Translations under genes and position numbers: made by a program | Source of the DNA: a virus | Direction: 5' to 3' (one strand) | Length of the DNA: 39,784 bases | IMG/VR virus record: IMGVR_UViG_3300020156_000303 | Span: 1-39,784 of that record | Shown here: piece after piece, positions 5,234 to 23,026 of the stretch | Layout: every line of letters starts with the position of its first letter | Position numbering within the stretch: position 1 is the stretch's first letter | Notes under the pieces: generated by a model | What the model saw: only the letters and a program-made list of their open reading frames with translations | What the model was told of the DNA's origin: nothing | Database searches by the model: none

Positions 5234-6733
5234 CTATATTTCTTCCCAGCCTCCAGACACTTTCTTATACGTCTTGCCGTTGATGACTTTCGTGGAAGGC
5301 GTTGCCGCGTCACCGCCGCCCTGGTTAGTGATGAAGTTGTCAATCGCAGCTACTTGGGCGCTATTGTCAAGCGAGCTTATGGAGAGCTTTGTGGGGTCTG
5401 GAATGATGCTCTCGATAAGTCGCTGCACGCCAAGGTCGAGCGTTCCTAGTTTCTCCTGTTGCTTGTATTCGGCGGTTATCTGGCCGCGCAGGGTGTCAAG
5501 CAGCGTCTTGTTCTGTGGGAAGTTAGCGGTAAACCAGTTGAGGCCGTCCAGTCTGTTTCGATACTGCCCAAGAAGACCGAGAAGTGTCTGTTTGCCTGTG
5601 GCCTGTGCCTCAGCGAGCACCTGGGCGCGATACTCTTTCGGCACCTGCGTGAGCGGGATTTGGCCGTTCTTGTAGGCCATCGCGTAGGCCATCGCGTCTG
5701 CTGGGTCTGCTGTGCTGACTCTGTTCCGCTCTTCTATCTGGCTTTGAATATTGGCGCGCTGTAGAGCGTCCGTTGCAAGAGCAGAAAGTTTGACCTGACG
5801 GCCAAGCATGTCAGTTCCGTATTGTCCTGCTGCGGCGATTGCTGCTTCTGGTGTTTGAGCGGCTTGGATGGCATTGAGCGTTGCTGGGGGCGCATTGTTA
5901 CCCTGCGCCAACTGCATAAGCTGGAGCTTGGTATCAGAAAGAGTCTTGAGTGACTCGCGCTGCTCTTCGTATTTGCGCGTGTTGTCTTGAATGAGAAGTT
6001 GAAGCTGATTGTCTTCTGCCTTAGTGAGACGGCTTTGGTTCTGCTCGTAGAAGAGACTTTGGAACTGAAGAAGTGTTTGCAGCGGTTCGAGTTGCATCTG
6101 TATCTTCTTGTCTGCGGTCTGTTGTGCCGCTAGGTAGTTTCTGTTTGAAACGTCGAGCGCGATAGCGAGGTCTGCCTGCTCGAAAGCGTAGCGGCGGTTT
6201 ATCTGCTGCACCGTTTGTGCTGCGCCCTCCTGGAGTCCTCCGGCCGCGTCGATTGCCTGCTGCACTTCCACTTGCTGCGCCCGCTTTGAAGCCTGAAGCG
6301 CGGTGAAGGCGTCGTTATTCATCTGCCCTAACTCGTCTACGTTCAGCGAGTCTTCTACGGCTCCACGAGAAGCTTGCACGCCGAGGATGCGTTGCATGGT
6401 AGCTTCGAGACTTTCAGTGCTTGCGTCTGCTGCCTGCCGTCGTGCATCCACGTCCGCGCTTACGCGAGCGGATACAGCATTGAAAGAGTCGAGTGAGGCG
6501 TCAGCGGCTCCGGTAAGTGCTCCTGCGGTGGTGCTGGGCTGCACGGGAGGCACTGCAAGCGGCGCGATGGGATTGGCGAGCTGCGCTGCTGGGATCGGAG
6601 TGGGTGGAGATGACAGCGCGGTCTGAGGCGCGTAGGCGAAGCCGGAAGACTGAAGAGACGCAATCGCTTCTTGCTTGGTGTTGCCTGTTACGGTTTGGAC
6701 GCCCTTATCTGTATTTATTTCGTAAGTCTTCAT
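5234..6733 (-). CDS. Gln/Ala-rich coiled-coil virion protein (unknown)
   Basis: 499 residues, very rich in Gln, Ala and Leu, almost wholly helical, with long coiled-coil stretches (about 110-300). The N-terminus (MKTYEINTDKGVQTVTGNTK) and C-terminus (KVINGKTYKKVSGGWEEI) are short beta-like caps. It is coupled to the 895-residue gene by a 2-base gap and follows the beta-rich tail protein. In a short-tailed phage this position and composition suggest an internal virion (ejection) protein; it is too short and not repetitive enough for a typical tape measure. Function inferred from context only. Confidence 0.5.
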   Translation of the reverse strand: MKTYEINTDKGVQTVTGNTKQEAIASLQSSGFAYAPQTALSSPPTPIPAAQLANPIAPLAVPPVQPSTTAGALTGAADASLDSFNAVSARVSADVDARRQAADASTESLEATMQRILGVQASRGAVEDSLNVDELGQMNNDAFTALQASKRAQQVEVQQAIDAAGGLQEGAAQTVQQINRRYAFEQADLAIALDVSNRNYLAAQQTADKKIQMQLEPLQTLLQFQSLFYEQNQSRLTKAEDNQLQLLIQDNTRKYEEQRESLKTLSDTKLQLMQLAQGNNAPPATLNAIQAAQTPEAAIAAAGQYGTDMLGRQVKLSALATDALQRANIQSQIEERNRVSTADPADAMAYAMAYKNGQIPLTQVPKEYRAQVLAEAQATGKQTLLGLLGQYRNRLDGLNWFTANFPQNKTLLDTLRGQITAEYKQQEKLGTLDLGVQRLIESIIPDPTKLSISSLDNSAQVAAIDNFITNQGGGDAATPSTKVINGKTYKKVSGGWEEI

Positions 6734-6735
6734 GT

Positions 6736-8508
6736 TTAGGTAAGGGGTTCGCCTGGTGTATTTATAATACCCACCTCATGCAGCTCGTTCTCCCCAGTGA
6801 AGAGCATCGTTACCTTGAGTTGGATGCGTTCTGACTGCGCTCCGAGGCTGCGTTTAACACTCTCGCTCGTCTGGTCATCTACCTCAAAGAGTTTCGTCCA
6901 GTTCTGCACGCGAGCTTTCGCGGTTCCGGTCGTCACTCCCGTCACCGCCTCATCTGTCGTCACGGTGTAGGTGCCGCCAGACTCGGAAATAGCGCTTATG
7001 TGCGCCGTCTTTCCACTGCCCGTGCCCTGGATAACTTCCACTTCGTAGCCCTGCATGTCTGATACGTCGGTTGTGGTAGTAAAGCTGGTGGTGTTAACCC
7101 ACGTTATCGAGATGTAGGTTGGTTCTGCTTCTCGTGTTCGATACTTCACGGTGATTTTGTCGGTGGAAGAGAGGAGCTGTTTGTATTTCAGCCACACCTT
7201 CTGCCACACATCACTCAGGTTCGCTGATTGAATCCACGTCGTTACGAGATAGCCGAACTTCTGCACGGTGTCGTTGCTGTCGTCTATGAAAATCCCTGAG
7301 TCCAGTTCGGAGGCGTTGAGGTAGAAGCTCGCTCCGAGCATGAGCGTGCCGTTTCTGCCGTTTTCAGCAGAGACTACGCTGGCGTCAAACAGTGCTCCCG
7401 CGATACCGATGCGGTTTTGGCCGTAGTCGGTGATGGTGGAATTGCCTGCGGGGTTGTATGAGATGGAATACTTGTGTGTAAATCCGTAGTCAGAACTCCA
7501 CTCCCACACGCCTGACGGGAGGTTTTCGTTTATCGTCTCGTCAAAGTCCTCGTTGACGTTGTTTATGAACGCGAGGATGGTGCCGTTTCTTGTGGCAACA
7601 AGCCCATTGGGATGAATCAATCCCTCGTTGATGTAGTTGTTGATGCTTGAGAGGTTTGTTGCGGGGAGGCGAGCGACTTCCTGGAAGCTGGAGCCTGAGA
7701 ACGCGAGCAGCGAGCCATTAGAGTCCATTGCATACGGGACATTGTTCTGCACACACATAGCTGGAACTGCGTTGGCGTTGACGATGTATTCCGCTATGGG
7801 CTGGGCTGATATCCCGTCCCACTGGTAGATACGTCCCTTGCCTGTGAGGGAACCAAGAAAGCCTGTGCCTATCCAGATGTATTCCTGGGTGCACACCATT
7901 GAAAGGATTTGATACTGGCCTCCCGTGCCGAGGTCGAGGGAGTAGTCTGCGGCCGGAGCTGAAGAGAGCGAGTAGGAAGTGTTAAAGCTGCGGATAGTCT
8001 CTTTTGCGTCACGCACATACAGCCTGTTGAACTTCTTGAAGTATTTGAGAATGTGGAAGTAGTCAATGCTCAGCGGGTTGGCGCCGCCGCGAAGCGTCCA
8101 CGTTCCTCCTGTCTCATCCAGGCTGTAGATTTCATCCTCAGTGGTGGAGAAAAGCTGGCCGTTAAACACCTCCAGATCTGATTTCCGAGAGTCGTAGGTG
8201 AAGACTGGGTCAGTTACCGTCAGGTCTTGTGCGAACGCTACTTCTGGCGTGTCGCCTCCCTTGAGCACGCCTCCTGAGGTGGAACTGAAGCTGCACACTG
8301 CGTAAAAGGCGTTATCGAAATACTCGAATGCTGAGGGGTAGCTGTGTAGGTCGGAGGTGTCTGCTGTCGTGGTGTTTGCTTTGAGCCTGGGAGAGACGCG
8401 AGTGACGCCCAGGTTGCTCTGTAGGTCGATGTTGAAAGTGCTCCAGAGATTCCCGAGCACGTTGCTTCGGTTTGTCTGAAACCACTTCTTTCCAGGGAGG
8501 CGAATCAT
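6736..8508 (-). CDS. Large beta-rich tail protein, possible propeller (tail nozzle candidate)
   Basis: 590 residues from ATG 8508, which overlaps the upstream stop as ATGA; an in-frame GTG at 8529 is less likely. The body has many short beta-strand blocks with Trp, Tyr and Gly (YIWIGTGFLG, GRIYQWDG, NVPYAMDSNGSLLAFSG, GVWEWSSDYGF), like beta-propeller blades. A jelly-roll-like region follows (WVNTTSFTTTTDVSDMQGYEVEVIQG). With no tape measure present, it could match the propeller-bearing tail tubular/nozzle proteins of T7-type phages. That is a fold-level inference. Confidence 0.5.
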   Translation of the reverse strand: MIRLPGKKWFQTNRSNVLGNLWSTFNIDLQSNLGVTRVSPRLKANTTTADTSDLHSYPSAFEYFDNAFYAVCSFSSTSGGVLKGGDTPEVAFAQDLTVTDPVFTYDSRKSDLEVFNGQLFSTTEDEIYSLDETGGTWTLRGGANPLSIDYFHILKYFKKFNRLYVRDAKETIRSFNTSYSLSSAPAADYSLDLGTGGQYQILSMVCTQEYIWIGTGFLGSLTGKGRIYQWDGISAQPIAEYIVNANAVPAMCVQNNVPYAMDSNGSLLAFSGSSFQEVARLPATNLSSINNYINEGLIHPNGLVATRNGTILAFINNVNEDFDETINENLPSGVWEWSSDYGFTHKYSISYNPAGNSTITDYGQNRIGIAGALFDASVVSAENGRNGTLMLGASFYLNASELDSGIFIDDSNDTVQKFGYLVTTWIQSANLSDVWQKVWLKYKQLLSSTDKITVKYRTREAEPTYISITWVNTTSFTTTTDVSDMQGYEVEVIQGTGSGKTAHISAISESGGTYTVTTDEAVTGVTTGTAKARVQNWTKLFEVDDQTSESVKRSLGAQSERIQLKVTMLFTGENELHEVGIINTPGEPLT

Positions 8509-12102: not shown

Positions 12103-12135
12103 GTAATAGCACCTGCCTGCTCTCGACTATCCACA
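12103..12135 (-). promoter_or_regulatory. Promoter for scaffold/capsid genes
   Basis: TGTGGATAG (12135-12127), 15 bases, then TGCTATTAC (12111-12103) on the minus strand. The final T of TAnnnT is shifted by one base. The bases around TGTGGATAGTC closely match the portal promoter. Confidence 0.5.
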
Positions 12136-14626: not shown

Positions 14627-14659
14627 ACGCTAGCACCTCACGTCAATAGACTATCCACA
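14627..14659 (-). promoter_or_regulatory. Portal promoter
   Basis: TGTGGATAG (14659-14651), exactly 15 bases, then TGCTAGCGT (14635-14627); the portal ATG follows after 11 bases. Confidence 0.55.
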
Positions 14660-17347: not shown

Positions 17348-17381
17348 AATCTAGCATTACTCCCTAGGTGCGCTATCCACC
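17348..17381 (-). promoter_or_regulatory. Promoter of the packaging gene cluster
   Basis: GGTGGATAG (17381-17373), 16 bases, then TGCTAGATT (17356-17348), with ATG 17341 after 6 bases. It lies in and just after the end of the 40-residue frame. Confidence 0.5.
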
Positions 17382-19663: not shown

Positions 19664-19738
19664 GACATTTCTTAGCTAGACCTAACCCCTGCTTGCTGCA
19701 CTCCAACGAATGACGAAGAGCTAGTGAAGTGCTCAGTA

Positions 19739-19894
19739 GCGCGGACGAGGATTTGCACCTCGCATGGTGTTAGCAGCCACTTCTTATCAGCGTCCTTTCG
19801 GACCGAGGTCGCTCACGGCGACTGCCACCTTGTAACCGCGCGTATTTCGTAAGCCAATACGCACGCAAAGCGTTTACCTATTCCGCCACCGCGC
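19739..19894 (-). ncRNA. tRNA-like element with an enlarged middle domain
   Basis: Minus strand, 156 bases. The 5' end GCGCGG pairs with the 3' end CCGCGC. GGCGGAATAGGTAAACGC is an almost exact tRNA-Leu-type D arm, and CGAGG-TGCAAAT-CCTCG is a T arm with one loop change (T55 to G). The middle is not a normal anticodon arm: a 9-base-pair stem with an 11-base loop, GTCGC-CGTGA-GCGAC and GTCC-GAAA-GGAC hairpins. No CCA is encoded and no convincing anticodon can be placed. Options: intron-bearing or degenerate tRNA, or a tRNA-mimic RNA. It lies 17 bases after the long-stem RNA, probably on one transcript. Confidence 0.5.
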
Positions 19895-19911
19895 AACCAA
19901 ACACTCCACCT

Positions 19912-20043
19912 GTGAAGCCCTACAGGGGAGGCAGAATCACGGGAGGACCAAAGCGCGCAATCTTTCGATTGAATACTTCTCCAACGATTCGCCGCCCCTT
20001 ACGGCGGACGGGGGCATTGCGCCCCCTGTAAGGCTTCACGTCC
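19912..20043 (-). ncRNA. Structured RNA closed by a 17-base-pair helix
   Basis: Bases 20039-20023 and 19928-19912 pair over 17 positions. The only non-Watson-Crick position is G.U in the minus-strand RNA but C.A on the plus strand, which points to a minus-strand transcript. Inside are a GGGGGC-GCAAT-GCCCCC hairpin (competing with the closing stem), a GC-rich CCGCC/GGCGG hairpin and CAATC-GAAA-GATTG. A promoter of the shared class ends just upstream, placing the 5' end close to 20043. Confidence 0.6.
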
Positions 20044-20049
20044 TCTTAC

Positions 20050-20082
20050 AACCTAACACCCAGGCGCGAGGCGATATCCACT
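20050..20082 (-). promoter_or_regulatory. Promoter of the structured RNA locus
   Basis: AGTGGATAT (20082-20074), 15 bases, then TGTTAGGTT (20058-20050). The predicted start 7 bases later coincides with the first bases of the long-stem RNA. Confidence 0.55.
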
Positions 20083-20100
20083 GTCCCCAGGCAGAAGAAA

Positions 20101-20120
20101 CCCCCCGCCGAAGCGAGGGG
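20101..20120 (-). terminator. Rho-independent terminator
   Basis: Minus strand CCCCTCGC-TTCG-GCGGGGGG (8 pairs, one T.G) then TTTCTTCTG. It ends the primase-fragment transcript and separates it from the RNA locus. Confidence 0.75.
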
Positions 20121-20156
20121 CGGAACGAGCAGTTTCCTACTCGCTCTCGGGAAGTG

Positions 20157-20740: not shown

Positions 20741-20797
20741 GTAAGTGAACGAATCCACTTACCAGAGTAGCAAGCCGCTGCCAGAGGTTATCTACAC
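20741..20797 (-). promoter_or_regulatory. Promoter with overlapping operator-like palindrome
   Basis: GTGTAGATAA (20797-20788), 15 bases, TGCTACTCT (20772-20764). Directly after it GTAAGTG/CACTTAC (20762-20756 and 20747-20741) form a perfect 7-base inverted repeat with an 8-base gap, next to the AGGAGG ribosome site. It could be a repressor site or RNA hairpin. Confidence 0.5.
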
Positions 20798-21604
20798 CAG
20801 GCCGTCCAGCACGTCCTCGTAGATGGGCGGCATTCTCCAGGGAGTAGCGAAGTCCTCTCTAACCTGGATGTGGATTTTCCTTCCGGCCAACTTCTTCATA
20901 GTTTCCGCACGGGCACGATTCGTTGTTACAACTAAGCAGTGTAGATTCTTTCTTCCCCACTGTTCCTCATACGGGCGGTCTTCAAAGATTTCCTCATACG
21001 CCGAGAACATATCTTCGATAGTTTTACGGTTGCGGTCGCTTTCGATTTTCTCCGTGCCCCTATCTATCTCTACCGCGTAGTAGTGCTTCTGCTGCTTGTC
21101 TTTGAAGTGAAGCCCAAACACTTCGTCTGGTTCGAGAAAGTCCCTGTTTTGTTTTCGGGAGAGCTGGAAGCGCATCGAGCCGCCCCCTGTTACTTCTTCC
21201 CGTGAAATGAAGCCGATGTCCTTTGCCTTGCACGCGAGTTCTATGGAAGCCATCACGCAAGAGCACATGAGCCGGTGAATGGCGTGGTCGGTGCGGGTGA
21301 TACCTGGCTTACCTAGAAAAGCGAGAGCTTTGGGGGTGAGGTCGTAGACGAGAGGTTGATACGCGGCGTTGTAGCACTCCCAGTATTCCTTGGGGCGCGT
21401 GAGGTAGCCGAAGTCGTAGAGCTTGCCGAGGCGATTTAGAAACTTGCTTTCATCTCCACCATGGAACTTATAGAGATGCTTAGAAGTGAGCGGGCCGTGC
21501 GTGCGAAGCGGGGCAAAGATAAGCTTGTCTCGCTCTTGAGGAACGAGCGTGCCTATGGGCGTAGGTTCGCGGAAGCGAATGCGCCTTGAACGTGAATCGA
21601 GCAT
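20792..21604 (-). CDS. Replication-relaxation family protein
   Basis: 270 residues. N-terminal winged helix (RTHGPLTSKHLYKFHGGDESK then FLNRLGKLYDFGYLTRP) and a C-terminal alpha/beta domain with EPDEVFGLHF and YYAVEIDRGTE. The layout fits the Replic_Relax family, which sits beside TraG/VirD4-type ATPase genes on mobile elements and is linked to plasmid replication and mobilisation. The nuclease-like core (E..D...H...EID.GTE) may be active. It follows the ATPase gene by 12 bases, and TGATAGCGT ends 6 bases before its ATG. Confidence 0.7.
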   Translation of the reverse strand: MLDSRSRRIRFREPTPIGTLVPQERDKLIFAPLRTHGPLTSKHLYKFHGGDESKFLNRLGKLYDFGYLTRPKEYWECYNAAYQPLVYDLTPKALAFLGKPGITRTDHAIHRLMCSCVMASIELACKAKDIGFISREEVTGGGSMRFQLSRKQNRDFLEPDEVFGLHFKDKQQKHYYAVEIDRGTEKIESDRNRKTIEDMFSAYEEIFEDRPYEEQWGRKNLHCLVVTTNRARAETMKKLAGRKIHIQVREDFATPWRMPPIYEDVLDGLV

Positions 21605-21610
21605 GTCTAA

Positions 21611-21644
21611 ACGCTATCATGCGTCCTCCCCATAGCTATCCACT
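21611..21644 (-). promoter_or_regulatory. Internal promoter before the relaxation-family gene
   Basis: AGTGGATAG (the box at 21644-21636), 16 bases, TGATAGCGT (21619-21611), then 6 bases to ATG. It lies in the last codons of the ATPase gene. Confidence 0.45.
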
Positions 21645-23026
21645 CCTTTGCTGATTTTCTTTGACGATGCGCTGCTACGCCCTGGAACGCTATAGACGAT
21701 ATTAGACGCTGTGGGTGCGTGAGTTCTTTTTGGCCGAGACTCTAAAAGGCCGTATTCCACCTTCACATCGTTAATCTTTCCTTCTGTGGCACAGGTGAAC
21801 GTAAGCGGCGTGCGGCTGATGTATTCCGTTCCCATCGCCTTGCTCATGGTGGTGCGGTCATCGAAGTTGGGGCAGGACACAAGCTTGATGGCGCACTGCA
21901 TAAGAGCGTCTCGTAGCGAACCCTTGGTTTGATTTAGGAAGTGGTGCGCTAACACTACGCCCAGTTTGTATTTCCTGGCCTGCGTTAAGAGGTGCTCGGT
22001 CTTCTGGTCGAAGTATTCCTGCGCTTCGTCTACATAGAGAAACGCGGGAGTTCGATACTGCTCCCTAACTCTTGCGCGTTCGAGTGCAGCCCTAAGAATG
22101 AGGGAGATAAACAGCCTCCCAAACATCTTGCTGTCGTCGCCCTGCAAATACGCCTGGTCTGTGTCAATAAGGATGAGCTGGCGCTTGTTCAGCTCGTCGT
22201 AGAAGTCGATGGTGTTTTCTTTCTCCGTGAGGAGCTTCTGAAACGTCGGGGAATGTATGAGTGCTTCTACCCTGTGCCCAATGTCGTCTTTCGTTGTTTT
22301 GTAGGGGCCACCCGAACCCAACATCTTCGTTTGGAAAAACTTTCTCGGAAGTTCTGGGAGCGCGTCTATGTGCTTCTTGTAGGCGGCGGGCTTATCGAGG
22401 AAGTCAATGACATCACTGAGCGTCGAATCAAACGAGAACATGAGGCGGCACATGGGCTTAAACAGCCCCTTCATCTTTCCTGACAAATCCATCCCCAGGC
22501 CGGAGAAGAGGTATTCGAGCGTCTCTATCGCGGCGGTGATTGAAGGTTCGGGGTCGCCGCCACGATTCTTTACTCTGAAAATGTTTACTGACGGTGGACT
22601 CCTGGGGTTGATGTAGAGCGGCTCAAACGGAAGGTCGAGGTTGCGGAGCTTATGAATGATGTCGCCCTGGCTGTCTACCACTACAACCGTGGGGCGGTTC
22701 TCTCGCTCTAAGTCCGCGAGAATCATACTTTGCAAGAGCTGTGTCTTTCCCGAACCGGGGGAACCTAGAACATGCGTGTGCGCGTATCTTGTCTGGAAGT
22801 CAGTGTTGTAAACACTAAACGGGGCTGGTTCGTTCTTCTTCGCTTCTGCAAGCTGCGCCTCGTAAGCCACACGCTCCTCCTCCATCTTGCGCTGCCGCTC
22901 TTCGAGCGCAATTGCCTGCCGTTGCTCGTAGGAGAGAAACGAATATACGATACGCTCAAGCGGCTTCCCCTCCTCCTTCGGCCGCCATGAATCAACGACC
23001 CGCTTCTTTATCGCGTCCCAGTCCAT
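21617..23026 (-). CDS. VirD4/TraG-HerA-type DNA-pumping ATPase
   Basis: 469 residues. Walker A LGSPGSGKTQ at 87-96, a conserved VVVDSQGDIIHKL strand (near 125), Walker B LYVDEAQE near 330, and downstream ALMQCAIKLVSCPNFDD, as in type IV coupling proteins and HerA/FtsK relatives. The N-terminal 65 residues form a charged coiled coil rather than the usual membrane domain. It would move or remodel DNA at a membrane or pore. This is plasmid/conjugation machinery, not packaging (TerL is elsewhere). It sits between a P-loop-less partner and the relaxation-family protein. Confidence 0.8.
   Translation of the reverse strand: MDWDAIKKRVVDSWRPKEEGKPLERIVYSFLSYEQRQAIALEERQRKMEEERVAYEAQLAEAKKNEPAPFSVYNTDFQTRYAHTHVLGSPGSGKTQLLQSMILADLERENRPTVVVVDSQGDIIHKLRNLDLPFEPLYINPRSPPSVNIFRVKNRGGDPEPSITAAIETLEYLFSGLGMDLSGKMKGLFKPMCRLMFSFDSTLSDVIDFLDKPAAYKKHIDALPELPRKFFQTKMLGSGGPYKTTKDDIGHRVEALIHSPTFQKLLTEKENTIDFYDELNKRQLILIDTDQAYLQGDDSKMFGRLFISLILRAALERARVREQYRTPAFLYVDEAQEYFDQKTEHLLTQARKYKLGVVLAHHFLNQTKGSLRDALMQCAIKLVSCPNFDDRTTMSKAMGTEYISRTPLTFTCATEGKINDVKVEYGLLESRPKRTHAPTASNIVYSVPGRSSASSKKISKGVDSYGEDA

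Follow-up and report, generated by a model that had tools for sequence, protein, structure and literature searches.

A phage locus of the minus strand encodes a member of a large, unannotated RNA family with a tRNA-Leu-like core

A promoter that faces a long helix, followed by a short element with tRNA-type arms and no protein-coding frame, raises the question of what such a phage locus encodes and whether it occurs elsewhere. The locus was analysed within the window, which is the whole stretch of 39,784 nt (positions 1 to 39,784 of IMG/VR record IMGVR_UViG_3300020156_000303). The parts of the locus given below all lie on the minus strand. The upstream transcription unit, which holds a primase-like gene (20729-20157), is closed after that gene by an intrinsic terminator (20121-20100), and a promoter of the class GTGGATA-N16-TGTTA is located at 20054-20081. 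Four exact copies of the class GTGGATA-N14-18-TGYTA were present in the window, against 0.03 expected; the remaining three (12107-12134, 14631-14658 and 17352-17380) are located toward the structural genes, and a variant with GTAGATA was found at 20768-20795. The original prediction had the promoter pointing at precisely the helix's first base. The promoter class was borne out, while the predicted start at ~20043 placed the aim within a few bases of the helix, which begins at 20039.

The helix consists of 17 pairs, formed by a 5′ arm at 20023-20039 and a 3′ arm at 19912-19928; the only unusual pair is U.G for RNA of the minus strand and would be A.C for RNA of the plus strand, as had been described. 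The 143-nt helix domain gave a folding z of -3.5. No ORF of at least 60 aa overlapped positions 19669-20136, which agrees with the earlier statement that no protein frame explains the locus, and searches of the locus with ARAGORN and Rfam returned zero calls. A minus-strand terminator search between the tRNA-like element and the next gene (19663) found none, and the large terminase gene lies downstream at 16285-14876. Elsewhere in the window, positions 20792-23026 hold replication-relaxation and coupling-protein-like ATPase genes typical of conjugative elements, in the same tailed-phage genome that also has a terminase and an integrase; a search through the ATPase (21617-23026) found no relatives of the window among viral contigs.

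The tRNA-like element begins 17 nt past the 3′ arm of the helix and occupies positions 19738-19895 (156 nt without the terminal U.U). The 5′ strand of the acceptor (19889-19895) is followed by U8 (19888), by a D arm of the tRNA-Leu type (19870-19887; GGCGGAAUAGGUAAACGC) that is almost invariant across the family described below, and by a hypervariable middle of 106 nt (19764-19869) that replaces the anticodon arm. The T arm (19745-19763; GCGAGG-UGCAAAU-CCUCGU) has a 6-bp stem and a G at position 55, and the 3′ strand of the acceptor (19738-19744), which pairs as GCGCGG/CCGCGC, ends without an encoded CCA. Within the middle, a hairpin of 10 bp (arms 19865-19856 and 19846-19837) is followed by a domain that GGUG and CACC (19829-19826 with 19769-19766) close; AU comes next, and the register of this closing stem is supported by the family. 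As the element alone gave a folding z of only -1.95, its strength comes from the family.

The obtained results showed that the window locus is not a one-off; the element is a member of a large, widespread and unannotated phage RNA family with a tRNA-Leu-like core, hundreds of copies of which were found in very different phages. A covariance model, R1, was built from 60 aligned members whose middles are dissimilar, the window being excluded, and it recovered the window element with 58.9 bits (E 1.1e-14) on the features of the family: a 7-bp acceptor, U8, the D arm, the UGCAAAU T arm and AU before the T stem. The predicted arrangement of tRNA-type acceptor, D and T arms around a non-anticodon middle was upheld. 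The covariance check that had been proposed was also passed by the tRNA-like part, as 14 of the 16 core pairs showed two-sided compensatory changes in the 60-member alignment. Compensatory cells numbered 223, against 57 in shuffled alignments, with none of 500 shuffles as high; structures slid out of register collapsed, and 98% of the core-pair cells were paired.

A test based on the D arm alone led to the same family. All 18 bases of the D arm GGCGGAATAGGTAAACGC were found unchanged in more than 119 viral contigs, and among 92 distinct loci picked by the D arm, 72 had TGCRAAT at a distance of at most 350 nt, against an expectation of about 3 or 4. A perfect 6-bp T stem was found in 69 of these 72 loci and a perfect 7-bp acceptor in 62; the acceptor positions were paired in 97% of cases, compared with 56% when partners were shuffled, and acceptor pairing had played no part in choosing the loci. 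The T-arm pattern occurred at more than 120 viral loci and at 91 bacterial loci, most of them in Firmicutes. When 148 Lactobacillales genomes were searched with R1, nine had matches of at least 55 bits, while the next-best matches reached at most 39 bits and were ~85 nt long, as ordinary genes for class II tRNAs are. The family was absent from Rfam 15, in line with the novelty claimed at the outset, and no description of it was found in the open-licence literature, subscription journals and preprints being largely outside the reach of the search. The observation of the locus was confirmed, and its interpretation as a structured RNA was supported.

The family core, in which the acceptor, D arm, T arm, U8, A14, A15 and U48 are kept, is under strong structural selection. 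It consists of a 7-bp acceptor, U8, a tRNA-Leu-type D arm and a 6-bp T arm with the loop UGCAAAU, and the anticodon arm is missing. The near-invariant bases were U8, the D arm, A14, A15, G18, G19, the U ahead of the T stem and the T loop; these are the bases that build the core and elbow of a tRNA, and their retention suggests a folded tRNA elbow. The middle domain is 20-220 nt long and differs in nearly every phage; of 229 middles compared, 202 had little in common with any other. What the middles generally have is a closing stem, and the 3′ strand of this stem stops exactly two bases short of the T stem, where class II tRNAs have their variable arm; the stem had at least 7 bp in 34% of members compared with 4% after shuffling, and in one lactobacillus clade both the closing stem and an inner hairpin showed compensatory changes. 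An H-type pseudoknot in the middle seemed convincing on inspection, yet it did not rise above shuffled loops. At the ends of the element, the first acceptor base was G in only 33% of members, base 73, which follows the acceptor, was A in only 59%, and CCA occurred within 5 nt in 6 of 220.

A second form of the RNA contains an extra hairpin domain within the T loop, between G55 and C56 (GGUGACUAUACGAG...CUCGUCAAAUCC). Seventy complete copies of this form were parsed, and its signature was present in 103 viral contigs (L330-L425). Its linkage to terminase was weaker, and a blastn search with one such member against the named phages gave zero matches.

The long upstream helix of the window is an instance of a recurrent arrangement. 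A helix of at least 15 bp within 200 nt upstream was found in 10 of 203 members, compared with 1 of 203 shuffled 200-nt stretches, and in eight of these ten, the window included, the helix ends 9-18 nt ahead of the element. Five copies from Bacillaceae and Paenibacillus share a three-hairpin domain upstream of the element; for the sequence of the window helix itself, no relative was found.

Members occur in two settings: some are flanked by a late activator and the terminase genes, and others belong to tRNA arrays. Late activators were prominent among the ORFs directly upstream (n=108; phrog_36 in 22, phrog_248 in 13 and phrog_2198 in 10), and terminase was not seen among the top upstream families. 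Downstream, the two longest ORFs of 68 loci gave ~31 matches to the large terminase. A tRNA was located within 150 nt of the element in 28 of 220 members, and all 37 such tRNAs were on the strand of the element; nine of 24 downstream tRNAs start 1-9 nt past it, and another member lies 3 nt ahead of an odd tRNA. The family thus combines a hypervariable domain with co-orientation and tight spacing to tRNAs and with placement at the start of late transcription. No protein family was common to the neighbours of the members, which points to a host partner. Furthermore, the RNA was absent from the flanks examined in 57 phages whose terminase is 57-76% identical to that of the window, and it is therefore accessory.

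Copies were identified in named Firmicute phages, and in many prophages. The SPP1 copy lies in the head operon between genes 9 and 11, those of phi3T and the SPbeta relatives ahead of the yonK late region, that of Geobacillus phage PK3.5 after a RinA-family regulator, that of Lactiplantibacillus phage H1-Guo before a P27 terminase and that of Lactobacillus phage Lenus between two tRNA-Arg genes; Lacticaseibacillus phage R24.2, Paenibacillus phage Pd_22F and Leuconostoc phage Ln-9 carry further copies. The RNA was annotated in none of these named-phage records. The element of SPP1 and that of Lenus are each followed directly on the 3′ side by another tRNA-like sequence, which is degenerate but has a normal T arm (L426 3541-3590 and L433 5104-5185). 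Other copies have further RNAs as neighbours: a phage-encoded tmRNA adjoins a family copy in a tRNA array (L047 2276-2715), and an abiF RNA match barely at threshold lies directly downstream of another copy (L036 74-110, minus strand). One lactobacillus-phage copy is matched over its T arm and acceptor by a CRISPR spacer of Lactiplantibacillus plantarum (L136 ~6727-6760), which makes that locus a CRISPR target. In the SPbeta-like phage Goe14, the position that the tRNA-like RNA occupies in phi3T and BUCT082 is taken by a sub-threshold skipping-rope RNA (L502 1880-1989), and a DUF3800-VIII RNA lies further downstream in Goe14 and BUCT082 (L502 3186-3251); this suggests a hot spot of RNA exchange.

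Taken together, we favour, though with somewhat less than even confidence, the explanation that host tRNA-processing enzymes cut a late or tRNA-operon transcript down to a stable RNA that acts in trans and has a tRNA core and a lineage-specific domain. The RNA would be transcribed late or together with tRNAs, excised by RNase P and 3′ trimming, and would then persist as a free, stable molecule acting in trans. The tRNA-like elbow could provide processing, stability or docking onto a factor of the host, and a separate target or partner would be set for every phage lineage by the variable domain. Within the window, the RNA would be initiated from the promoter at 20081-20054, with the 17-bp helix just 5′ of the element, and transcription may continue into the late genes. 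This explanation is favoured by the covariation of the core, the D-arm test, the independent model match and the adjacent same-strand tRNAs, as well as by the placement between tRNA-Arg genes in Lenus, the late activator and terminase context, the dissimilar middles and the lack of a shared neighbour protein. Against it, the variability at acceptor position 1 and base 73 and the absence of CCA mean that tRNA-type end processing is not strongly marked; G55 in place of U55 and the T-loop insert of the second form are changes expected to upset the elbow recognised by RNase P. A more specific proposal, which we put forward as a possibility of rather low probability, is an invariant tRNA-derived scaffold that displays a hypervariable RNA domain in trans, i.e., a per-lineage specificity module (for a host target, antisense or decoy) on a host-recognised chassis, of which the T-loop-insert form would bear two.

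A site before the late operon also fits a cis-acting leader of the late transcript, and this is the main rival, which we consider possible but doubtful. Such a leader would act on the polymerase or on its own mRNA through antitermination, RNase cutting or 5′ protection, comparable to the lambda late leader and the HK022 put RNA. The position between late activator and terminase is what it would predict, as is the order in the window, where the promoter comes after the upstream terminator and the search for a further one ahead of the next gene found none; several members have the long upstream helix, and terminators followed the element in 25 of 196 members and in none of the shuffled sequences, as for a leader with a terminator to overcome. 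However, many copies lie in tRNA arrays or, in SPP1, inside the head operon, phages with a terminase 57-76% identical to that of the window do without the RNA, and the role does not require tRNA-like folding. Unlikely, in our assessment, is a trans-acting tRNA decoy or counter-defence RNA, which would occupy or escape host enzymes or tRNA-targeting defences while its variable domain took part in an arms race. The complete change of the middle around a constant tRNA core, the accessory distribution and the different RNA at the same locus in one SPbeta-like phage are consistent with it, but the missing anticodon arm leaves nothing for anticodon nucleases, and a link to defence or counter-defence genes was looked for among the neighbours and none was found.

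The remaining readings were given far less weight. A true but aberrant or intron-bearing tRNA that is aminoacylated would account for the identity of the D arm to the tRNA-Leu type and for the weak R1 scores of ordinary ~85-nt tRNA genes; it is nevertheless very improbable, as the anticodon arm, a conserved base 73 and CCA are absent, the acceptor sequence is free, and the window was called neither by ARAGORN (default settings, and also with introns allowed) nor by the Rfam tRNA and tmRNA models. Scarcely credible is an element acting as DNA, such as an integration site remnant, a packaging signal or a decayed tRNA pseudogene. One member is close to an integrase and many are near terminase, but compensatory changes preserve base pairs, G.U pairs included, and most members are not near an integrase, that of the window being 5.4 kb away.

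An RNA present in model phages (SPP1, phi3T and SPbeta relatives) and in hundreds of phages and prophages is missed by tRNA finders and Rfam, and it joins a conserved fold to an extremely variable middle at the start of late expression or in tRNA arrays. As phages of B. subtilis carry it, its transcription, processing, partner and function are directly testable. With this family, phage biology would gain a large class of tRNA mimics; the family also bears on the old question of the role of stable non-tRNA RNAs within phage tRNA clusters.

Several known RNAs resemble the family in part. Skipping-rope RNA (RF02924; PMC7779021) is likewise a phage sRNA with a part of variable length and shares a site with the family in one SPbeta-like phage, but its model matched none of the elements in 29 records at E up to 10, while it did match the Goe14 RNA. 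The T4 species 1 and 2 RNAs (rnaC and rnaD) are also stable phage RNAs in a tRNA cluster, and rnaC has a tRNA-type T arm; they lack the D arm of the family and gave no match to its model, and for species 1 RNA neither sequence nor structure homology to it was found. ROOL and GOLLD are accessory, structured phage RNAs that are often found near tRNAs, but they are far larger and their fold is unrelated; a ROOL RNA was observed beside one family member. The bacterial Y RNA YrlA (RF02553), which is reported from phages too, is a tRNA mimic without a decoding anticodon. It is, however, circularly permuted (T arm, acceptor hairpin, D arm), has the T loop UUCGA and goes with Ro60, whereas the family is unpermuted; alignment of true YrlA (L436-L438) showed the different order, and RF02553 had no match in the window record. 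The Ro60 domain (TROVE, PF05731) was found in one of 78 member records other than that of the window, and in L173 a Ro60 gene lies near a phage-type tRNA array that includes a family copy.

Two further parallels are with tmRNA and class II tRNA. The tmRNA (RF00023) shares tRNA-like ends and a foreign body where the anticodon arm would be, but the family has a full D arm, a free acceptor sequence and neither a tag frame nor a fixed body, and the RF00023 model had no match in the window. A functional tRNA was rejected, as neither an anticodon arm with a readable anticodon nor a canonical acceptor with conserved discriminator and CCA was found, and the lack of conservation in acceptor identity, CCA and base 73 argues against aminoacylation. 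The family differs from class II tRNA in the absence of the anticodon arm and CCA, the 20-220 nt middle, the T loop UGCAAAU with G55, and 13 rather than 12 stacked pairs in the acceptor and T stem. What it shares with tRNA-Leu is the D arm GGCGGAAUAGGUARACGC, U8, A14, A15, G18, G19, U48, the T arm, the acceptor and, two bases ahead of the T stem, a stem where the variable arm would be.
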